This document shows positions 26,215 through 38,438 of a stretch of 41,153 nucleotides of DNA, one piece after another (within the stretch, counting starts at the first letter, position 1; every line of letters starts with the position of its first letter). Where the stretch lies: positions 1 to 41,153 of the forward strand of contig JAADDE010000024.1 of assembly GCA_013154085.1 (NCBI GenBank). The letters are read 5' to 3'. The notes under the pieces are model-generated. The model was not told where the DNA came from. It saw only the letters and a list, made by a program, of their open reading frames with translations, and made no database searches. Source of the stretch: Thermoproteota archaeon (GTDB lineage Archaea > Thermoproteota > Thermoprotei_A > Sulfolobales > Ignicoccaceae). The position numbers and the translations under genes were made by a program.

Positions 26215-26658
26215 GTGGAGAAGTGGGCTCCGGCTCTGCTCCTTCTGGCCACCCTGGCGCTGAGCATAGCATTCTCGCCGTGGTGGAACCCTTGGGAGTA
26301 CTCGCTGAGCGCCTTGGGCAGCGCCAGCAACGGCGTGGGAGGGGCCCTCTTCAACGGCGGCTTAGCGCTGACCGGAATCTCGCTAACAAAAATTGATAGT
26401 GAGCTGATCAAGACAGTTGGCGTGCTGACCGTCCTGGTGGCCGCAATCAACATAGACTTCGGGCTGGCGCACTTTGCAGTAGCGGCCTTGCTGTTCGTGC
26501 TCCTCTTCACTTACATCCTTCTGCACGGAGATCTGTTAGGGGCTTCGGTGAGCGCCGCGCTCTGGGCCTCCCACTGGCTTTTGGGCGTGCCGCCGGGAAT
26601 CGCCATACCGGAGCTGGCAACGATAGCCTTCGCCGCTTATCACCTCCTCCTAAAGTAG
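26215..26658 (+). CDS. DUF998-like membrane protein
   Basis: 147 residues with about five hydrophobic helices. The segment FSPWWNPWEYSLSALGSASNGVGGALFNGGL follows the DUF998 pattern (a Ser-Leu-Gly turn before an FN-G helix), though shown here from memory of the family. No catalytic residues are evident. GTG start. The 3' end overlaps the convergent large membrane-protein gene by 19 bp. Confidence 0.6.
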   Translation: MEKWAPALLLLATLALSIAFSPWWNPWEYSLSALGSASNGVGGALFNGGLALTGISLTKIDSELIKTVGVLTVLVAAINIDFGLAHFAVAALLFVLLFTYILLHGDLLGASVSAALWASHWLLGVPPGIAIPELATIAFAAYHLLLK

Positions 26659-28208
26659 GCTATGGCTACCACAGCCGCGCCCAAGAGGGGGCCCAAGAAG
26701 GTGAAGGCGCCCAGGGGGGTGCACCAGACCTCCCTCTGGACCAGCAGAGGCCTCAAGCCTAGGGCGCAAGTTCCGAGCCCCGTCCAAGCGGGCTCCGACC
26801 AAGCGAAGTACGAGGGGTTGTTGGGAGGCAGATACTTGCCCATGAATATATTTACGTAGTGGTAGCTCCTAAGCAGCGTGGTGTTGCTTCCGGAGATCGT
26901 CACGTTGTACAGCCCTACTCGCTTCACGGCGGTGAGGTTGCCTTGGTAGTACCTAGATTCCGCTTCCACTTTGGAGACGCCGAGCACCTTTCCCGAAGGC
27001 GTTAGAGGGTGATACGAGGAGAGCCACGAGCCGTAGATGAGCGCGAAGCCTAATACGAGCGAAGCCAAGACCATTAACGCGTCGAAGGCCTTCCTGCCTT
27101 TGAAGAGCTCGTAGACGCTGAGCCCGACTGCCGCGATGACCGAGGTCCAAGGGGTCAGCGCAGAGGGCAGGGACAGCAGGCCTATCTTGGAGCGTTCCTT
27201 TAGGAACAACACTAACAGCAAGTTTGCAGAGGTTATAATTAGCGAAGCGGCCAAGAAGGGCAAGATTGCCGGCCCAAAGAAACTCCCGCCCGCGGATAGC
27301 GCGAAGTCTGTCAAGCTCGCTGCGAACAACATCAAGGATGCCGCGTGTACCCCTAAGAACCTCCCGTCGTAGAGCGCTCCGGCGCGCCTGAGCGCCGATG
27401 ATGCAGAGTAGACATACGTTATCAGCAAAGCCAGTGCCATCGATGTTTGAAGGGAGAAGAAGGGCGAGGGCATTCCTCCGAAGCCCAGAGGGAGCAGCCT
27501 AGGCACCGCGCTGGCGAGGGCTAGGGCCGAGAGCGCCGCGATCAAGCCCAGCTTGCTCTCCGCGTGAATCAGCGAGACTAAGGTGAGGGGGTATAGATAG
27601 AGGGCAGTGCTGTACGCGGTGGGCGGCAGCGGGAGGCCGTAGGCCCAGAGGGCCCAGCTGGCCGAGGCGGGCGCCGAGAGGAAGGCTAGGAGAGAAGCGC
27701 CGTAGAGGTAGGCCCTTCTACCGGCCACTGCGTAACCTACGAAGAGCGCCGCCGAAGCCATAAGCAACGGAAGATAAATCATGAACCACTGCGACCTGAC
27801 GACAGAATAGCCTAGAGGGGGCAAGTTTACTGGCGGTGAGATCATCGGATAGTTTAGCTCTAGGTAGATAGACCAATAGAACAGCACAGAGGCCGAGAGC
27901 AAGGTAGCGAGCACGTAGAGTGAGTCCTTGTTCTCCCTCAACGCAATTGCCACAAGAATACCAGCCATCAAGGGGAACAAAAATGTAGGCATTGTGATTG
28001 CCGTGAAAAGCCTCTCCGGTAAGGGCAAGCCGCAGTTCAGCCAGTACCACTCTTGAAGAGTGGTTATGCTGCAAGTCGAGAAATCGTAGAGCGTTAGTGC
28101 GAAGGGCGCGAGAACGAGGAGGGCTAGGTACTTGCCCCTCCCCGCAAGCCTCCTCAGGGCTAAAGCTATCAGCGGTGCGATGGAAGATAACACATATACA
28201 AGGAGCAT
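26640..28208 (-). CDS. Large polytopic membrane protein with C-terminal outer domain
   Basis: 522 residues. About twelve hydrophobic helices fill residues 1-400; a polar domain of about 95 residues with N-X-T/S sites (LTAVKRVGLYNVTISGSNT region) follows, then a last helix and FRRR end. So the polar domain is outside the cytoplasmic membrane. No transporter or enzyme motif is recognised. ATG start. It lies 73 bp downstream of the pilin gene on the same strand, but a T-run between them suggests mostly separate transcription. A link with fibre assembly or anchoring is conceivable only by position. Confidence 0.6.
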   Translation of the reverse strand: MLLVYVLSSIAPLIALALRRLAGRGKYLALLVLAPFALTLYDFSTCSITTLQEWYWLNCGLPLPERLFTAITMPTFLFPLMAGILVAIALRENKDSLYVLATLLSASVLFYWSIYLELNYPMISPPVNLPPLGYSVVRSQWFMIYLPLLMASAALFVGYAVAGRRAYLYGASLLAFLSAPASASWALWAYGLPLPPTAYSTALYLYPLTLVSLIHAESKLGLIAALSALALASAVPRLLPLGFGGMPSPFFSLQTSMALALLITYVYSASSALRRAGALYDGRFLGVHAASLMLFAASLTDFALSAGGSFFGPAILPFLAASLIITSANLLLVLFLKERSKIGLLSLPSALTPWTSVIAAVGLSVYELFKGRKAFDALMVLASLVLGFALIYGSWLSSYHPLTPSGKVLGVSKVEAESRYYQGNLTAVKRVGLYNVTISGSNTTLLRSYHYVNIFMGKYLPPNNPSYFAWSEPAWTGLGTCALGLRPLLVQREVWCTPLGAFTFLGPLLGAAVVAIAYFRRR

Positions 28209-28281: not shown

Positions 28282-29163
28282 TTACTGGACGGTCAGCGGC
28301 ACGGTGGTGCTCCAAGTGCTACCGTCCTGGAACTGTATCCTCACGTCGACAGCATTCATCACGTTGGGGTTAACCTTGTCACACCACACTACCAAGCTCC
28401 AGTCGTCCTGGCCGACCTTGGCGAGGTCGAAGAGGTCCACGTTGTTGCCGCTGTTGTCGGCGTTGACGGCCTCACCGGTCCAGCGGTCGAACCTTATGTT
28501 GGCGTTGGTGGCCCTGAAGTTGGTCTCGACCTTCTGGGTGGTGACGTACTGCACCTCCCAGACGCCGGCGACTACGGTGACGAATGGGTCGGTGAACACG
28601 CCTATGGTCTCACCGCTGGCAACTGCGCCGGCCGCGGCGTTGGTCGGGGTGTTGTTAGTAGACACGGCTATTCCGCCCGGCGAGTAGAGGTCTTCGTCGT
28701 CAACAGCGCCCTGGGTGGTGCCGTAGTAGCCGTAGAAGAGCACGCCGTAGCCGGTGGCGCCGCCGGCCGGGGTGGTAGTGGTGTGCTGGGCGTCGTCAGT
28801 GCTGAGGGCAAAGGCGTTGTAGTGGCATATCACCCTTCCGCTGTAGATCACGTCGACGTTGTCGAGGGTGATCAGGCTGGCGCCGGCTCCGCCGCCTCCG
28901 ACGACTGCGGGAGGAGCCTTGAAGCTGACTATCAGTACGGGCTTCTGGGGGGAGAAGGCAGTAGCGGCGGCGGCAGTGTCAGCGGAACCGAGCGCCCAGG
29001 TCGCTTGGATCAGGGTCAAAGTCTTGCCGCTCACTTGGCTGCCGGCGACGTTGGCGCTGAGTCCGCTGACCCAAGTGTAGAGGAGGACGGCAGCGGCGAC
29101 GGCGATGAGTATCAGCAGTAGGGTCGCGATTACGGGCGACACACCCTTCCTAGCGATCCTCAT
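28282..29163 (-). CDS. Type IV pilin-like fibre protein (Iho670-type)
   Basis: 293 residues. A class III signal peptide MRIARKG is followed by VSPVIATLLLILIAVAAAVLLYTWVSGL, a hydrophobic helix for filament core packing; cleavage after Gly7 is expected. The rest is a Thr/Ala/Gly/Asn-rich beta domain (about 45-293) with two cysteines, for the filament surface. The N-terminus and overall plan strongly resemble Iho670, the major adhesion fibre protein of Ignicoccus hospitalis. ATG 29163 is preferred over the longer frame since it sits directly before the basic signal and after GAGAGTGAG. A strong TATA (minus-strand GGGATATATAAG) and a terminator suggest high, single-gene expression. No prepilin peptidase or assembly ATPase is near. 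Confidence 0.87.
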   Translation of the reverse strand: MRIARKGVSPVIATLLLILIAVAAAVLLYTWVSGLSANVAGSQVSGKTLTLIQATWALGSADTAAAATAFSPQKPVLIVSFKAPPAVVGGGGAGASLITLDNVDVIYSGRVICHYNAFALSTDDAQHTTTTPAGGATGYGVLFYGYYGTTQGAVDDEDLYSPGGIAVSTNNTPTNAAAGAVASGETIGVFTDPFVTVVAGVWEVQYVTTQKVETNFRATNANIRFDRWTGEAVNADNSGNNVDLFDLAKVGQDDWSLVVWCDKVNPNVMNAVDVRIQFQDGSTWSTTVPLTVQ

Positions 29164-29243
29164 GCTCTCACTCTCGTGACGTTCTGCGCGGGCGGGCTTT
29201 AAGAGGGGGTCAGAAGTTCTGAGCAACAAAAAGCCCCCGCAAG

Positions 29244-29273: not shown

Positions 29274-30617
29274 TCAGCGCAGCTCCGGATATAGCAGTCT
29301 AGCAGCCGTCACTAGAGGATCCCAGACCGGCGCCAGAGGCGGCACGTAGCTTATGTCCGCAAAGAACAGGTCCCTAACCGTGCCTCTGCGCGCCAAGAGC
29401 GTGGCCACTGCGTCGACCCTTCCCTTCACTCCCTCCGGGCCGACCACCTGCGCCCCCAGAACCGTGCCGTCCTCCGAGGCGACGAGCTTCACGTGGGTGA
29501 ACTGGGAGCCGGGGTAGTAGTGCGCCCGGGTCCTTGCCTTAACGAATGAAGCCTTAACCTTGAACCCCAGCTCCTTTGCCTCCTCTTCGGTCAGCCCGGT
29601 CCTCCCTATTTGGAGGCCGGAAGCTACCGTTATCCCGGTGCACGAAACGCCCGGGAAGGGGACCCTCCTCCCGGAGGCGCTCAGCCCGGCGACCAAGCCC
29701 ATCTTGTTTGCCGGGGGGGCGAAGGGGCACCAAGCCTCCGTTCCGGTATGAATCATCCAGCTCTCCGCCACGTCGCCGGCGGCGTAGACGTCGGGGAGGC
29801 CGGTCTCCATATACTCGTTTACCTTTATTCCTCCAAACCTCCCGAGCTTTAAGCCGAGCTTTTCGGCCAGCTCCACGTTGGGCTCCACCCCGACCGCGAC
29901 CACCACTGCTTGGGCCTCTACCTTGTTCCCGTCGCTGAGCTCAACGGCCTCAACCCTTTCCTTTCCTATTATTCTGCTCACCGTCACGCCTTTGTGAAGC
30001 TTTACCCCCACGTTCTTCAAGTGCTCCTCGACGAGCTCGCTCATCTCCGGGTCGAAGCTCCTCCTGAGCACTCTGGACCTCACGACCAAGTGAACCTCCT
30101 TGCCGGCGTCCCTTAGCTCAGCCGCCACCTCAACCCCTGTGAAGCCGGCGCCGACGACCACCACACTTTTGGCCCTTTCGAGCTCCTTCCTAGCCTCTAT
30201 TCCGCTCTCCACGGTGTGGAGCTTCACCACGCCTTCCAGCTCCTCGCCCTCCACGCCTAAGCTCTTCGGCTTCGCGCCGGTGGCGAGTATCAGCTTGTCC
30301 CACTTGTACTCCTTCCTTTCTCCCTTCTCTATTACAGTTACGGTCCTCTTATCGTAGGAAACGTCTACCACTCTGGCGTGTACGTGAACATCTATGCCCC
30401 TCTTCTCCCGAAACACCTCTATCGGATAGTACACGAGCTCGTCGGGCTCCTTCACCTTGCCCACGATGAAGTACGGAAGTCCGCACGGGGCGTAGGAGAC
30501 GTAGCCGGATGCTTCAAACACTCTAACCGTCCAGTCCTTGTGTATCCTCTTCACTCTGGAGGCCGCGGCCATGCCCGCGGCCCCGCCGCCCACCACGACT
30601 ACCTCCACGAGGAGCAC
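29274..30617 (-). CDS. CoA-disulfide reductase / NAD(P)H oxidoreductase-like flavoprotein
   Basis: 447 residues. FAD-binding VVVVGGGAAGMAAA at the N-terminus, the single redox cysteine C45 in SYAPCGLPYF, a second Rossmann VVVVGAGFTGVEVA for NAD(P)H (about 150-165), the FAD segment VYAAGDVAES, and the C-terminal dimer domain ending YVPPLAPVWDPLVTAARL, all as in the CoADR/NADH oxidase group. Archaeal members reduce CoA disulfide, polysulfide or oxygen. Nearby sulfide:quinone-reductase-like and DUF1641 genes favour a sulfur/thiol role. GTG start; GTGs at residues 4 and 8 are alternatives. 43 bp after the DUF1641 gene, so probably the same transcript. Confidence 0.85.
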   Translation of the reverse strand: MLLVEVVVVGGGAAGMAAASRVKRIHKDWTVRVFEASGYVSYAPCGLPYFIVGKVKEPDELVYYPIEVFREKRGIDVHVHARVVDVSYDKRTVTVIEKGERKEYKWDKLILATGAKPKSLGVEGEELEGVVKLHTVESGIEARKELERAKSVVVVGAGFTGVEVAAELRDAGKEVHLVVRSRVLRRSFDPEMSELVEEHLKNVGVKLHKGVTVSRIIGKERVEAVELSDGNKVEAQAVVVAVGVEPNVELAEKLGLKLGRFGGIKVNEYMETGLPDVYAAGDVAESWMIHTGTEAWCPFAPPANKMGLVAGLSASGRRVPFPGVSCTGITVASGLQIGRTGLTEEEAKELGFKVKASFVKARTRAHYYPGSQFTHVKLVASEDGTVLGAQVVGPEGVKGRVDAVATLLARRGTVRDLFFADISYVPPLAPVWDPLVTAARLLYPELR

Positions 30618-30660
30618 CGAGGAGGAGGGGGTGGATGTAATAAAATCCTTGTCTAGGGAC

Positions 30661-31113
30661 TCACTCGCTGGCCTTCTTGCGCAGGCACGAGCCCATTACC
30701 TTAGCCATGTAGAGCATGAGGCCGAGGCCGGCGCCTATGTCGGGGTCCCTCAGAACCTTCAGCAAGCCGCCTATGCCGGCAGGCTTCGCTTGCTTGATGA
30801 ACTCCTCGCTGTTCAGTGCCTTGAGCGCACACTCAGTCAAGTTCTCTATGTTCTCCTTGAATACTATTGGGTCCACGTCCTCGAGCGGGTTGAGCGCCGC
30901 GTCGGCTGCGGCCATGGCGTGGTGCACGCGGCGGTCGTTGAGCCCAATCTCCAGAATTTCTTCGCTTTTCTCAGCCATGGCGACTAGCATTCCCAATATG
31001 CCGCTCTCTTGGAGCTTTGCCACAGCGTCGGCCAAGCGCTCGATGGCCTTCGCCAGCTCCTCAAGCTTCTGGGCCTCCATCTTTTCCAATACCTTGCTAA
31101 TTTCCTCACTCAT
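30661..31113 (-). CDS. DUF1641 protein
   Basis: 150 residues, helical. The central and C-terminal region with KPAGIGGLLKVLRDPDIGAGLGLMLYMAKVMG is the DUF1641 pattern; a single Cys lies near the end. In Sulfolobales and others DUF1641 genes accompany sulfide:quinone oxidoreductase or formate dehydrogenase genes, and may help membrane attachment or complex formation. Here it lies 11 bp after the SQR-like gene and before the CoADR-like gene. The glycine-rich amphipathic segment could lie on the membrane surface. Confidence 0.8.
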   Translation of the reverse strand: MSEEISKVLEKMEAQKLEELAKAIERLADAVAKLQESGILGMLVAMAEKSEEILEIGLNDRRVHHAMAAADAALNPLEDVDPIVFKENIENLTECALKALNSEEFIKQAKPAGIGGLLKVLRDPDIGAGLGLMLYMAKVMGSCLRKKASE

Positions 31114-31124
31114 GCTACATCACC

Positions 31125-32282
31125 TCACTTCAGCGCGTCTATCCAGCCGAGGTAAAATGCCAGCTTCATAAACTTTATCATAGGGCTCTGCTGAGAGGCA
31201 TACATCTTCTGCGCCGGCTTCTCGTGGTCTATGTCGAAGGTCACCAGCATTCCGGTGGGGCCGAAGTCCGCCACGGCCATTATCTCGTCGGGGAACGTAA
31301 CAGTGGCCCTCACTCCCACGAGGTCGGAGATCAGCGCGTCGGCTGCCGCGATAGCGGCAGCGTGTACGAAGATGCCGGCTATGGGGAAGTTCACACACGG
31401 CATCGCTGCGTCAGTGGGAATGAAGATGTTGGAGTACTTGGGGTGCCGGAACTCAGGGAAGGTGGTTACCAGCACCTTCTTGTTGTTCGGACATATGAAC
31501 TCCGGGTGGCCCTCTACGAACTTCGGAGGCCTTACCGGAGGCACGTAGATCAGCAGGCTGTAGTCCAGAGTTTCGCCGTCCTTGAACACTATCTGCTTCT
31601 CCTTAACCTCCTTGACCTCCTTGCCGGCCTTGTACACTATGCCCATCTTCCTGTGGAGCTTGCGGAACTGCCTGTACACGTCCTTGAACATCTGCTTCAT
31701 CTGCTTCTCGTCGAACGACGTTACCAAATACACCTCTGCCTTAGGATCCTTGCGGCGCGCGAAGTAGAGCAATCTGCCGACCATCTCGAAGGGGTAGCAG
31801 CCGCAGCGGAACGGCAGCTCCGGCACTAGCATTACTACCCTGCCGCCCTTGTACTGCTTGAGGGCCTCCCTCATCTTCTTGGCTCCTTCTAGGGTGTAGT
31901 TGTGGTAGCCGTAGCGCTCGAGGCCCGGCACCACCTCGGGCGCGTAGCGCACTCCGGAGCCTATGAAGAGGTAGTCGTACTCGAGGCTCTTCCCTCCCTT
32001 GGTCTTGACCACCTGCTTCTGGGGATCGATGTCGACTACCTCATCTATCACTAGGTCGGTTCCGTACCTCTTTGCGATGTTTGCTACGGGAGCCTTGAGC
32101 TGATCCTCTGTCACCTCGCCGAGGGCGAAGTCGGCGAAGAGGGGGGGCATGTAGTGCCACTCATCCTTGTTGATTATAGTCAGCTTGATCTTGTCCTGAA
32201 GCTCTGGGGGTCCCTCCCTCAACCTCTTGACTGCAACCAGCGTGGAGACTCCTCCTCCTATGAAGAGTACTCGCGCTGTCAA
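31125..32282 (-). CDS. Sulfide:quinone oxidoreductase-like flavoprotein
   Basis: 385 residues. FAD site VLFIGGGVSTLVAVKRL at the N-terminus; SQR-family core with LFIGSGVRYAPEVVPG, PFRCGCYPFE (C160, C162) and the C-terminal site TDAAMPCVNFPIAG (C296), which would be the redox cysteines; a hydrophobic C-terminal helix (KFMKLAFYLGWIDAL) fits monotopic membrane binding near quinone. It transfers electrons from sulfide (or the reverse, toward polysulfide) to the quinone pool. Cysteine spacing differs from canonical SQR, so the exact subtype is uncertain. TTG start. First gene of a three-gene unit with DUF1641 and CoADR-like enzyme. Confidence 0.8.
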   Translation of the reverse strand: MTARVLFIGGGVSTLVAVKRLREGPPELQDKIKLTIINKDEWHYMPPLFADFALGEVTEDQLKAPVANIAKRYGTDLVIDEVVDIDPQKQVVKTKGGKSLEYDYLFIGSGVRYAPEVVPGLERYGYHNYTLEGAKKMREALKQYKGGRVVMLVPELPFRCGCYPFEMVGRLLYFARRKDPKAEVYLVTSFDEKQMKQMFKDVYRQFRKLHRKMGIVYKAGKEVKEVKEKQIVFKDGETLDYSLLIYVPPVRPPKFVEGHPEFICPNNKKVLVTTFPEFRHPKYSNIFIPTDAAMPCVNFPIAGIFVHAAAIAAADALISDLVGVRATVTFPDEIMAVADFGPTGMLVTFDIDHEKPAQKMYASQQSPMIKFMKLAFYLGWIDALK

Positions 32283-32371: not shown

Positions 32372-34588
32372 TTAGCTTTCCTCATGACTCGCCACGTAGA
32401 GCTGGCCGAGCGCTATGCCCCCGTCCCCCGGAGGGACCTTCTCTGGGAGGTGCGCCTTCACCGCGCTCCTGACGCCCCTCATGAACGGCTCGTTGACGGC
32501 CGCTCCCCCAGAGGCCACTACTGGCAAGCCCAGCTCTGAAGCAACTTCACCCATGTTCAGCCCCAAGTTGAACTGGATGGTATACGCGACGTCTTTCTTA
32601 GGCAGTCCTTTCCTCAGAGCGCCCAGCGCCCACCGGAGCAGTCGCGTGGTCCTTATCACGCACTCCCCGCTCTTGTCTACCAAGTCCAGCACCTCCAGAA
32701 CCTTGCCCCCGAAGGATTTGGCCTCGAGGAGCATCGCCGGCTCGCCCTCGTAGCTCCTCTCCCAAGCGGCTCCGAGCAGAACCGCGAAGGCGTCGAGCGT
32801 CCTTCCGAGGGAGGAGGTCAGTATAGAGTTCGTGAGCTGCCTCTTGGCGACCTCGAACTCCGCCTCCCCTCGGGGCAGATACTTGCTCAAGTGCTTCCAC
32901 TCGTCCGGGTCCTCACCGGCCTTCCAGAGCAGGCCCAGCAGCGCCCTAGCTGGGTAGCGCACCGCTCGGTCCCCTCCGGGGAGAGGGAAGTACTCCAAGT
33001 GGCAGACCCTCTCGAACTCGGCCCCCCTCACAAGCAAGACCTCGCCTCCCCACGAATTGCCGTCGAGGCCGTAGCCGGTGCCGTCCACGACTATTCCGAC
33101 CGCTTCGTCCAGCCCCCTCTCCGCCATGACCGCAGCGGCGTGGGCGTGGTGGTGCTGGACCTCCAAGAGCTCGGCTTCGAACTCCTCGGCTAAGCGCACG
33201 GCCAAAGCCTTCGAGGAGTAGCGGGGGTGGAGGTCCGCGACCACCAGCGAAGGCTTCATCGAGTATTCCTTCATGAACCACCTAAGCTCCGTCTCTAAGA
33301 AGTCCAGCACCTCCAAATCGTCGGTGTCGCCTATATACTGGGTCATAACTACCTTGTTGTCGAAAGAGACTGCGCCGGCGTTCTGCAACTCCGCGCCGAC
33401 TGCTACGGCCTCCGGGAGATGCCTCTTGAGCTCGATCCAGCGGGGGGCGAAGCCCCTCGACCGCCTCAAGAACACCCTCGTGCCGGCGGTGTACCTAACT
33501 ACGCTGTCGTCAACTCTGTGCACTATTTCTCTATCGTGATCGAGCACGAAGTCCGCCACCCCCATTTGCAGCACGCACTCCTTCGTGATGCACGTAGGCT
33601 TGCCCGTCGGGTTGGCAGAAGTCATGACTGAGAACTTGTCGTCCGTGGCATCTAGCAACAAGTAGTGCAGCGGAGTGTAGGCCCTCATGACGCCTATGAG
33701 CTCGTGGCCCGGCGCCACCAGCTCGCTGAGGGGCGAGGGCTTCCTCTTTGGGTAGAGGACTATCGGGGCCTCTGGGGACTCAAAGGCCTCTCTGTCGCTA
33801 ACCACTGCTATTTCGTTCGCTACCTCGTAGTTCAGCGCCATCAGCGCAAAGGGCTTCCTGGGCCTCGACTTCCTCCTCCTCAGCTCGGCCAGCGCCCGGT
33901 CGTCGGTGGCCTTAACCGCTAAGTGGTAGCCTCCCATTCCCTTTACAGCCACTATGAAGCCCTCGCTGACCAGCTTCGCCGCCTCGGCTATCGGATCCCT
34001 CACCAGAAGGGTCTTTCCGTCGGAGTCGAGGAGCCTCACGCCGGGGCCGCACTTGGGGCAAGAATGGCCTTGGGCGTGGTAGCGCCGGTCCCACGGGTCC
34101 CGGTACTCCCTCTCGCACTCGGCGCAGAAGGGAAAGGAGGCCATAGAGGTGTTCGCCCTATCGTATGGAAGCGAGTAGAGCATGGAGAACCGCGGGCCGC
34201 ACTTAGAGCACGAATTGAGGGCGTAGCGGAAGCGCCGGGAGAACGGGTCCCTCACCTCCCTCAAGCATTCGTCGCAGACGCCCAAGTCCGGCGGTATCTG
34301 GGACCGCGCTCTGACCGAGGGCTCGCTCTTTCGTATTTCGAACTTCGAGTAGCCCTTGGGCTCTGCCCGGGAAAGGTACAGCTCTTCAACCCTTATCGGA
34401 GGGGGCAGCTCGCGCAGCCTATGGACGAACTCCTCGACCAGCTCTCCCTCAGCCCATATCTCAACCGCTCCGCCGGCTACGTTCTTCACGTAGCCTTTAA
34501 TGTCTAAGGAGCGCGCGAGTCTGGCCACGTCGGGCCGGAAGCCCACTCCCTGCACTAATCCCTTCACGATTATGCGTACTGCCTTCAC
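32372..34588 (-). CDS. hypF: Hydrogenase maturation carbamoyltransferase HypF
   Basis: 738 residues, full length. Order: acylphosphatase domain (about 1-90, VKGLVQGVGFRPDVARLA), two zinc fingers (CDECLREV with CSKCGP; CAECEREY with CPKCGP), YrdC-like domain (about 195-370, KGMGGYHLAVKATDD, SVMTSANPTGKPT), and a Kae1-like ATPase/carbamoyl-transfer domain (VQHHHAHAAA, VVDGTGYGLDGNSWGGE). With HypE it makes the cyanide ligands of [NiFe] hydrogenase from carbamoyl phosphate. ATG start. No other hyp or hydrogenase gene is in the window; it supports hydrogen-based energy metabolism. Confidence 0.95.
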   Translation of the reverse strand: MKAVRIIVKGLVQGVGFRPDVARLARSLDIKGYVKNVAGGAVEIWAEGELVEEFVHRLRELPPPIRVEELYLSRAEPKGYSKFEIRKSEPSVRARSQIPPDLGVCDECLREVRDPFSRRFRYALNSCSKCGPRFSMLYSLPYDRANTSMASFPFCAECEREYRDPWDRRYHAQGHSCPKCGPGVRLLDSDGKTLLVRDPIAEAAKLVSEGFIVAVKGMGGYHLAVKATDDRALAELRRRKSRPRKPFALMALNYEVANEIAVVSDREAFESPEAPIVLYPKRKPSPLSELVAPGHELIGVMRAYTPLHYLLLDATDDKFSVMTSANPTGKPTCITKECVLQMGVADFVLDHDREIVHRVDDSVVRYTAGTRVFLRRSRGFAPRWIELKRHLPEAVAVGAELQNAGAVSFDNKVVMTQYIGDTDDLEVLDFLETELRWFMKEYSMKPSLVVADLHPRYSSKALAVRLAEEFEAELLEVQHHHAHAAAVMAERGLDEAVGIVVDGTGYGLDGNSWGGEVLLVRGAEFERVCHLEYFPLPGGDRAVRYPARALLGLLWKAGEDPDEWKHLSKYLPRGEAEFEVAKRQLTNSILTSSLGRTLDAFAVLLGAAWERSYEGEPAMLLEAKSFGGKVLEVLDLVDKSGECVIRTTRLLRWALGALRKGLPKKDVAYTIQFNLGLNMGEVASELGLPVVASGGAAVNEPFMRGVRSAVKAHLPEKVPPGDGGIALGQLYVASHEES

Positions 34589-36923: not shown

Positions 36924-38438
36924 GTGAGGCCTCCTCCGCGCGCGCCGGATGAAATCGTGAGGCGTCTCGGAGTTCTGCTACTCCTAGCGGCGGCCGCGCT
37001 GGCGCTCTATGTGGCGAGCTTCAGCGAGGACGAGTACCGCCGCGTCGAGATAAAGGTCGTTGACCACACAAAGGACTTCCTCGAAGAAGGCATAACTGCG
37101 TACGAGGGCGCGAAGACGTGCTACAAGTGCCACGAGCAGGCCACTCTAGACTTCTTCCATTCCTATCACTACCAGATGGTGGCGAGGCAGTACGACGTAG
37201 TCAACGCGCCGTGGGTTCCCTACGGAGGCAAGGTAGCCATGAACGACTTCTGCGGGGCGATATTCTACAACGGCAAGCCCATCAACTTCATAGGCTTCGC
37301 CAAGCTGACAAACCCGCCTCCGGGCTACGAGCACTTGAGGGGCAAGCCGGTGGCGTTCGGCTGTGCGGCGTGCCACGGCATCGGCCTGGGGGAGGTGCCC
37401 CAGACGCGGCTGACCGACGCACAGCTCAAGAACATGGATTGCTTAGCGTGCCACGTAAGGCCTGAGGTTTACGTCGGGGGAGTGATTGGCTTCAAGAAGG
37501 GAGTAAGGGAAATTTATAAGGATGAAAACGGCAACTGGAGGTACAAGGTAAATCTGGATGTAATGACCATAGCGAAGAACATCATAAACAAGCCCACTAG
37601 GGCCAACTGTCTCGCGTGCCACGCGTACTCCGGCGGCGGTCCGGGCTTCAAGAGGCCCAACATAACTCCCGACCTCTACAACCCCAGCAAGTACTTCGAC
37701 TACCACATGGGAGAGGGTATGCACTGCGTGGACTGCCATACGGGTAAGTACCACCTCTTCCCGGACAGAGCGGCCGACGGCTGGGCCAGGGAGCCGGGAG
37801 AGGTGAAGACGTGCGTGGACTGCCACGGTCCTAGGCCCCATGAGGACGAATACGGCGACGACCTCAACAAACACTCGGAATTTCTGGCCTGCCAGACTTG
37901 TCACATCCCCTACATAGCCCACGGCCAGTACCCGACGGAGCTGTCGAGGGACTGGGGCGGCTCCCGCTTCTCACCCGAGCTGGGCTACTACGAGCCCTTG
38001 GCCCGCTACGGCAAGTACGTGAGGCCCACGTACATGTGGTACAACGGGACGCGGTCGATCTACGTGTACCCCAGCAAGGTCGAGGGAGAGGTAGTCGTCA
38101 CAGTCAAGCCCTTGGGAGGCAGGGGCAACGGCAAGATCTATCCGTTTAAGCTCCACACCTCCCGCGTGCCCTTAAGCGAGGAAGGGATCCCGATACCCAT
38201 TAAGGTTGGGCTCTTCATGGCGACAGGAGACAGCAACAAGGCTATATTGGCGGGAGCGGCGGCGGCCGGCCTCACGTGGAACGGCAAGTGGGTTACCTAC
38301 GTGCGCTACATGCAAGTGGACCACGGGGTTCTGCCGGACGACAGAGCCTTGGGGTGCAAGGAGTGCCACAGCCCCAACACGTTCTTCCCGTGGAAGGAGC
38401 TCGGGTACGACAGAATAATACTCTTGGACGGGCGCTAG
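36924..38438 (+). CDS. Octaheme cytochrome c, membrane-anchored or secreted
   Basis: 504 residues with eight CXXCH heme sites (C at 66, 147, 173, 229, 268, 297, 323 and 478) and many extra histidines for bis-His ligation. An N-terminal hydrophobic helix (about 15-33) without an obvious cleavage site makes an anchor likely, with hemes outside the cytoplasmic membrane. Seven hemes lie in residues 60-330; then a 150-residue heme-free stretch (beta-rich, residues 330-475) precedes the last. Multihaem cytochromes are known from Ignicoccus; possible roles are electron transfer to sulfur, to the outer membrane, or nitrogen-compound reduction. GTG 36924 or 36957 (MRRLGVLL) as start. Confidence 0.9.
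   Translation: MRPPPRAPDEIVRRLGVLLLLAAAALALYVASFSEDEYRRVEIKVVDHTKDFLEEGITAYEGAKTCYKCHEQATLDFFHSYHYQMVARQYDVVNAPWVPYGGKVAMNDFCGAIFYNGKPINFIGFAKLTNPPPGYEHLRGKPVAFGCAACHGIGLGEVPQTRLTDAQLKNMDCLACHVRPEVYVGGVIGFKKGVREIYKDENGNWRYKVNLDVMTIAKNIINKPTRANCLACHAYSGGGPGFKRPNITPDLYNPSKYFDYHMGEGMHCVDCHTGKYHLFPDRAADGWAREPGEVKTCVDCHGPRPHEDEYGDDLNKHSEFLACQTCHIPYIAHGQYPTELSRDWGGSRFSPELGYYEPLARYGKYVRPTYMWYNGTRSIYVYPSKVEGEVVVTVKPLGGRGNGKIYPFKLHTSRVPLSEEGIPIPIKVGLFMATGDSNKAILAGAAAAGLTWNGKWVTYVRYMQVDHGVLPDDRALGCKECHSPNTFFPWKELGYDRIILLDGR

Follow-up and report, generated by a model that had tools for sequence, protein, structure and literature searches.

Sulfide:quinone oxidoreductases (SQRs) use two redox cysteines, whose roles have been described for Cys160 and Cys356 of the A. 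ferrooxidans enzyme (PMC6335251) and for Cys159 and Cys339 of a type III SQR (PMC13047784). In Bacillus subtilis the DUF1641 protein ForE copurifies with the formate dehydrogenase ForC, and without ForE1 the ForC1 enzyme no longer reduces menadione and has lost most of its bound menaquinone (PMC8808070). In Ignicoccus hospitalis, Giannone et al. (2011) predicted a three-gene operon of Iho_0673, Iho_0672 (DUF1641) and a "sulfur oxidoreductase" (PMC3149612). We analyzed the corresponding locus in a 41,153-nucleotide stretch of a thermophilic, sulfur-respiring, Ignicoccus-like archaeon (contig JAADDE010000024.1, positions 1 to 41,153 of the forward strand; referred to as the window), which belongs to an assembly of 1.18 Mb and 82% completeness (GCA_013154085.1). 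The locus encodes an SQR-like flavoprotein, a DUF1641 protein and a flavoprotein resembling coenzyme A (CoA) disulfide reductase (CoADR). The recurrent unit is formed by the first two genes, and the SQR-like protein appears from its sequence not to be a canonical SQR.

The SQR-like and DUF1641 Genes Are a Recurrent Pair

The locus corresponds to Iho_0670-0673 of I. hospitalis. Genome G002 has the gene order of the window. It was treated as I. hospitalis because its open reading frames (ORFs) for the SQR-like protein and the pilin match in size those listed for Iho_0673 and Iho_0670 (385 and 310 aa; PMC3149612). Iho_0673 is ORF L032:6826-7983, and the SQR-like proteins of the window and G002 are 78% identical.

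The neighborhood was surveyed in 20 stretches from 17 related genomes and then at 80 further loci, some of which are the same records under other names and several of which are short contigs. In 19 of the 20 stretches the SQR-like gene is followed by a same-strand DUF1641 gene (17 detected by phmmer, and L050 and L051 by a hidden Markov model, HMM); the twentieth, L048, is cut by the contig end. An HMM derived from the A2 set of DUF1641 proteins found a match in 52 of the 80 loci, including all 36 of the archaeal loci L052-L087. The 28 loci without a match to this model are 27 more distant, bacterial ones and L088, apparently the same cut archaeal contig as L048. Judged from these counts, the adjacency is too frequent for chance, and the recurrent unit is two genes, SQR-like and DUF1641. 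The first-pass annotation had called this a known pairing. It is genuine and recurrent, and our literature search, which left other wordings and subscription journals outside its range, found no paper joining "DUF1641" and "sulfide quinone". No common third gene stood beside the pair among ten neighboring ORFs scanned from relatives; these comprised a metallo-beta-lactamase, a metal-type P-ATPase, an MFS transporter, RNA polymerase Rpb2, a prepilin peptidase and five unmatched ORFs.

Seven Acidilobaceae-type loci (L041, L042, L046, L068, L081, L082 and L083) carry a second, divergent SQR-like gene directly upstream of the pair. These second genes have their own DUF1641-like gene, whose product is without cysteine in six of the seven cases and has one cysteine in L082.

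The CoADR-like Gene Is Probably a Neighbor

The CoADR-like protein scores 440.7 bits with TIGR03385, below the equivalog cut-off of 578.8. Its closest PDB match (412 bits) is 3kd9, "Coenzyme A disulfide reductase", which we take to be from P. horikoshii. C45 lies in an APCGLPY motif aligned with APCGIPY of 3kd9, presumably the place of the CoADR active-site cysteine. The protein had been described as a single-cysteine reductase. This is right in that it has one cysteine of the active-site type, C45, but C297 and C326 are also present.

The first-pass annotation had placed all three genes in one redox unit, with sulfane sulfur moving between CoA thiol and the quinone pool by way of the CoADR and the SQR-like enzyme. 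The ORF coordinates confirm that the three genes lie on the minus strand with gaps of 11 and 43 bp. Their order is kept in I. hospitalis, for which a three-gene operon was predicted (PMC3149612), and each of the two flavoproteins appears to rely on one conserved active-site cysteine. I. hospitalis is also said to have no gene of the rhodanese family (PMC2614490), which may call for some other carrier of sulfur. Closeness alone does not mark out the three genes, because HypF 89 bp upstream and the pilin-type ORF 44 bp downstream are on the same strand.

The distribution of the CoADR gene argues against the three-gene unit. Among relatives it stands beside the pair only in I. hospitalis (one of the 20 stretches), it is beside the pair in none of the 80 further loci, and about 142 kb separate it from the pair in the sister species G001. 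CoADR-like genes were present in 40 of 59 genomes at 1e-40; presence is common, linkage is not. In more of the genus the CoADR gene accompanies the pilin gene, which it adjoins in the window, G002, G003 and G004 though not in G001. G004 has a divergent gene upstream of CoADR. Co-culture of I. hospitalis with Nanoarchaeum equitans raised Iho_0672 10-fold and Iho_0673 5-fold but left the third product of the predicted operon, the "sulfur oxidoreductase", at "relatively unchanged levels" (PMC3149612). Linkage, synteny and the published regulation led us to reject the three-gene unit, and we consider the proposed model, with its transfer of sulfane sulfur between CoA and quinone, improbable. Most simply, the pair was brought next to an older CoADR-pilin block in one Ignicoccus sublineage.

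An AT-only 9-mer precedes the CoADR start codon (Table 1), and I. hospitalis has a similar AT box about 19 nt before the aligned start. This box weakly hints at a separate promoter for CoADR. Within the range searched, boxes with AT at 8 or more of 9 places turn up at 5.5% of random positions and precede 18% of 45 genes. Boxes of 8 of 9 also lie before the SQR-like and pilin starts, that of CoADR being 9 of 9, and no AT peak at TATA distance appeared over the 45 genes with an upstream gap (window, L032, L033 and L140).

The SQR-like Protein Lacks the Second Redox Cysteine

The SQR-like protein matches the Pfam families Pyr_redox_2 (4.2e-14) and FCSD_central (PF21706, 2.8e-9). The first-pass annotation had described it as a membrane flavoprotein; this location is putative, and the AlphaFold2 model (pLDDT 94.6) has one C-terminal helix, residues 367-384. 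In structure comparison the model comes closest to flavocytochrome c sulfide dehydrogenase (FCSD; VIA Z 40.1) and A. aeolicus SQR 3hyv (Z 40.0; root-mean-square deviation 2.4 over 372 residues). The model thus predicts an SQR/FCSD fold with an FAD domain. The best NCBIfam model is NF049943, which represents the selenoprotein subtype of type III SQR only, with 114.9 bits against a cut-off of 525.

In HMMER alignments C160 is aligned with C178 of A. ambivalens and C156 of A. aeolicus, and Ala336 with C350 and C347, respectively (residue numbers of the two SQRs were counted off the alignment). Because the second redox cysteine is absent and the curated score falls below the cut-off, membership of SQR proper fails. 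A true SQR would oxidize sulfide to polysulfide by the standard two-cysteine mechanism and reduce quinone. The fold, the FCSD_central domain and the alignment of C160 are consistent with such an enzyme. Against it, the second redox cysteine is Ala336 in the window and position 336 is not cysteine in any of the ten genomes of the clade described below. An anaerobe respiring H2 and S0 makes sulfide and would have little to gain from oxidizing it. Plain SQR chemistry is doubtful because the second redox cysteine is absent, and we regard a true SQR as very unlikely.

A second SQR-like gene, 27% identical, is found in the window's genome on contig C11 (L136:318-1433), followed by an opposite-strand ORF (1411-1749).

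A Clade with Altered Cysteines

Of 99 aligned homologues, 92 were counted and 7 were set aside for gaps or masked sequence. Position 160 is cysteine in 92/92 rows and position 336 in 83/92. Eight of the nine rows without C336 belong to one clade, which we label family II (support 100/100 in a 41-row tree, in which row L034 is a long branch). The ninth is L039, a paralogue in G010. The two G010 paralogues (L038:6196-7443 and L039:6114-7292) share long identical stretches and differ elsewhere, L039 having lost C336; this looks like gene conversion.

We then surveyed 214 genomes of the order at 1e-85, a search in which fragmented copies could be missed. Fourteen passed: four with C336 and ten without it, the latter being family II (the window's genome, G001, G002, G003, G055, G177, G179, G180, G181 and G186). 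G003, G055 and a Pyrolobus metagenome-assembled genome (L052, L064) carry both the C336 type and family II, which argues for a paralogue that is being maintained, as opposed to simple drift.

Eight of the ten family II genomes have cysteine at positions 13 and 108. Position 13 directly precedes the final G of GxGxxG, and position 108 is the A/S of an A-x-G motif. These columns hold cysteine in six of the 99 rows, all of family II, and in 0/91 rows outside the clade. The rows with just three cysteines (L052 and L053) have exactly C13, C108 and C160. In the window and I. hospitalis, Ser13 and Gly108 occupy these places, and C160-G-C162 is present instead. C162 (CGC) is found only in the window, G001 and G002, and G001 also has C13 and C108. 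This series of patterns suggests a stepwise replacement of the second redox thiol. From the flavin-binding motifs of the superfamily, these residues may be in spatial contact.

A fuller scenario can be drawn, in which an SQR-superfamily flavoenzyme rebuilt its cysteine set twice. The clade of Ignicoccus and Pyrodictiaceae would first have lost the C-terminal cysteine and gained cysteines in two flavin motifs (GxGxC at 13 and C-x-G at 108). The sublineage of I. hospitalis and the window would then have dropped C13 and C108 while retaining a CGC disulfide at the invariant C160. The DUF1641 cysteines would relay sulfur to the partner subunit, and the enzyme might act in reverse as a quinol:polysulfide reductase responding to the Nanoarchaeum symbiont. 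We offer the whole of this scenario as speculative and rather unlikely.

The DUF1641 Partner

The DUF1641 protein matches PF07849 at 1.8e-12 with 47.3 bits, above the gathering score of 21. No PDB match to it was found at E<=0.001. A new fold was considered and set aside: the lack of a PDB match was not taken as evidence, and the model is weak (pTM 0.45).

Cys95 and Cys143 are kept in 18/18 rows of A2 (A2 does not include L050, L051 or the divergent second pairs), and the protein has exactly two cysteines in all ten family II genomes. When cysteines were matched within 4 and 8 columns, 45 of 71 partners had both and none had only one. This conservation would fit an active site shared between the subunits, in which the two DUF1641 cysteines give the second thiol in trans or carry the persulfide off. 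The other 26 partners have neither: 7 from Thermococcus, 3 from Nitrososphaerota (L093, L096 and L105), all 9 bacterial ones and the 7 of the divergent second Acidilobaceae-type pairs. The cysteines are therefore not essential to the pair in general. In Thermococcus and the bacteria the SQR-like protein has C336. Retention in family II may be plain inheritance, and the DUF1641 model is poor. We hold such a relay to be unlikely.

By analogy with ForE, we suggest that DUF1641 is the quinone or docking subunit of the SQR-like protein.

Proposed Function of the Pair

On balance, and with modest confidence, we favor the reading that the unit is a variant sulfur-linked two-subunit flavoenzyme, composed of an SQR-fold FAD protein and DUF1641, with CoADR as a neighbor. 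C160 would carry a persulfide or mixed disulfide beside FAD, and two electrons would be exchanged with FAD. Electrons would pass to or from menaquinone via DUF1641, which may serve as the quinone and membrane interface in the way that ForE serves the formate dehydrogenase ForC of Bacillus. In I. hospitalis and the window the missing thiol would most likely be replaced by C162 of the CGC motif as a local resolving thiol; a DUF1641 cysteine or free CoA would be less likely substitutes. Resolution of C160 by free CoA is one way in which a CoA link stays possible, and it would not require an adjacent CoADR. The reaction might run in either direction, as oxidation of sulfide or persulfide or as reduction of polysulfide from quinol, the latter of which would fit an archaeon that respires with H2 and S0.

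Two PF02621 matches occur in the window's genome, together with two radical-SAM proteins that score best with the NCBIfam model MqnC. By its make-up this set appears futalosine-pathway-like. The family II genomes among the 59 (G000-G003 and G055) have both the Mqn-like and the PF02621 sets, G003 with one PF02621 match. Across the genomes the pair and the Mqn set coincide (counts of 10, 5, 2 and 42; Fisher p 2.6e-6), but the comparison is confounded by relatedness, and G004, a partial genome seen in fragments only, was counted as having both. Since futalosine-type genes are encoded, the argument that I. hospitalis simply has no quinone was dropped as a refutation.

Several points weigh against the favored reading. 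We know of no activity for any member of the family II clade. The two MqnC-like proteins score 376.8 and 421.4 bits, below the equivalog cut-off of 428.1, and neither of the PF02621 proteins has an NCBIfam match at 1e-10. Solvent extraction of I. hospitalis is reported to have yielded no quinones (PMC4429474). Five genomes with a C336-type pair (G021, G039, G047, G054 and G056) gave neither a PF02621 match nor a TIGR03700 match at 1e-60; the electron partner need not be quinone and may differ. The ForE analogy is based on a shared Pfam domain of 39 residues only. CoADR and the pair are close on one strand, which makes read-through transcription possible.

Without C336, the family II protein could also be a non-sulfur flavoprotein. 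Family II would then have left sulfur chemistry for an NDH-2- or FSP1-like role or a part in stress response, the latter being the role proposed for Iho_0672/0673 by the authors of the 2011 study (PMC3149612). Structural comparison gives this some room, because NDH-2 (5kmq, VIA Z 35.7) ranks above A. ambivalens SQR 3h8i (Z 31.3 over 327 residues) and FSP1 (9ift) is close to the latter with Z 30.9. Most SQR/FCSD chains outrank NDH-2 (Z 38-40 vs 36), C160 is invariant, and the Pyr_redox_2 match is confined to residues 4-147, the NAD(P)H-binding half being unrecognized by Pfam. These observations make a departure from sulfur chemistry seem quite unlikely.

Features of the Locus and Neighboring Genes

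The minus-strand order is RIO1 kinase, HypF, SQR-like, DUF1641, CoADR-like and pilin-type ORF, with gaps of 89, 11, 43 and 44 bp from HypF onward. The coordinates are collected in Table 1.

Table 1. Positions in the window of the genes and sites discussed, with the menaquinone-related genes of the same genome
Feature	Position	Strand	Remark
SQR/FCSD-fold FAD protein (predicted), family II	31125..32282	-	385 aa, TTG start; orthologue of Iho_0673
DUF1641 protein, partner of SQR-like	30661..31113	-	150 aa, ATG start; two conserved Cys; orthologue of Iho_0672
CoADR-like flavoprotein	29274..30617	-	447 aa, GTG start; neighbor, judged outside the conserved unit
SQR-like codons C160-G-C162	31797..31805	-	invariant first redox Cys and second Cys (CGC)
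SQR-like codon Ala336	31275..31277	-	place of second SQR redox Cys
SQR-like codon Ser13	32244..32246	-	Cys in 8/10 family II genomes
SQR-like codon Gly108	31959..31961	-	Cys in 8/10 family II genomes
DUF1641 codon Cys95	30829..30831	-	kept in 18/18 A2 rows
DUF1641 codon Cys143	30685..30687	-	kept in 18/18 A2 rows
AT-only 9-mer ATTTTATTA, possible TATA box	30638..30646	-	21-29 nt upstream of CoADR start codon; weak, suggestive
HypF (hydrogenase maturation), upstream neighbor	32372..34588	-	position shared with I. hospitalis gene order
Type IV pilin/archaellin-like ORF, downstream neighbor	28282..29229	-	true start may be further in
Futalosine-type menaquinone genes (putative), window's genome	L132:367-1419, L133:371-1459, L134:368-1177, L135:322-990		MqnC/MqnE-like, PF02621 x2

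The pilin/archaellin-type ORF is syntenic with Iho_0670, the I. hospitalis surface-fibre protein. Next to it in the window, the minus-strand ORF 26640-28208 encodes a 522 aa protein with no Pfam or NCBIfam match at 0.001, a relative of which adjoins the pilin gene in G002 and G003. A multihaem cytochrome is encoded on the plus strand (36924-38438); it is a relative of the octahaem tetrathionate reductase family (TIGR04315, 224.7 bits against a cut-off of 375).

Comparison with Known Systems

In the presence of the symbiont N. equitans, Iho_0673 and Iho_0672 belong to the most strongly raised proteins of I. hospitalis (PMC3149612, Table 3). As a conserved pair of a predicted SQR-fold protein and DUF1641 with an altered active site, they pose a direct biochemical question. 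The natural series of C336, C13 plus C108, and CGC allows one to ask how the second redox cysteine of an SQR can be replaced. It also calls for caution with vent genomes, in which such genes should not be annotated as SQR.

Known SQRs (3h8i, 3hyv and the type III enzymes) share with the SQR-like protein the predicted fold over its whole length and the first redox cysteine. They differ from it in that the SQR-like protein has no second redox cysteine, has a fixed DUF1641 partner, and carries C13/C108 or CGC instead. The type III SQR of cable bacteria has extra cysteines, Cys11 and Cys103, modelled in the FAD cavity, and unlike family II it keeps both canonical cysteines, 159 and 339 (PMC13047784). 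By position, though not by alignment, Cys11 and Cys103 may fall in the same columns as 13 and 108 of family II.

The ForCE complexes of B. subtilis (YjgCD and YrhED) consist of a catalytic subunit and a DUF1641 subunit, as does the SQR-like pair (PMC8808070). The catalytic subunit of ForCE is a Mo/W enzyme, whereas the SQR-like protein is a flavoprotein of predicted SQR fold. For the third gene, the CoADR 3kd9 of P. horikoshii is the closest solved relative; unlike in the window and I. hospitalis, CoADR is unlinked to SQR/DUF1641 in the other relatives surveyed.

The counterparts in I. hospitalis, Iho_0672-0673, lie in the same order of HypF, SQR-like, DUF1641, CoADR and pilin as in the window. 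The locus and the prediction of a three-gene operon are already in print (PMC3149612). In its treatment of these proteins we found no mechanism, no link to SQR, no cysteine analysis and no survey of relatives. To it we add that the pair is probably a variant of the SQR/FCSD kind.

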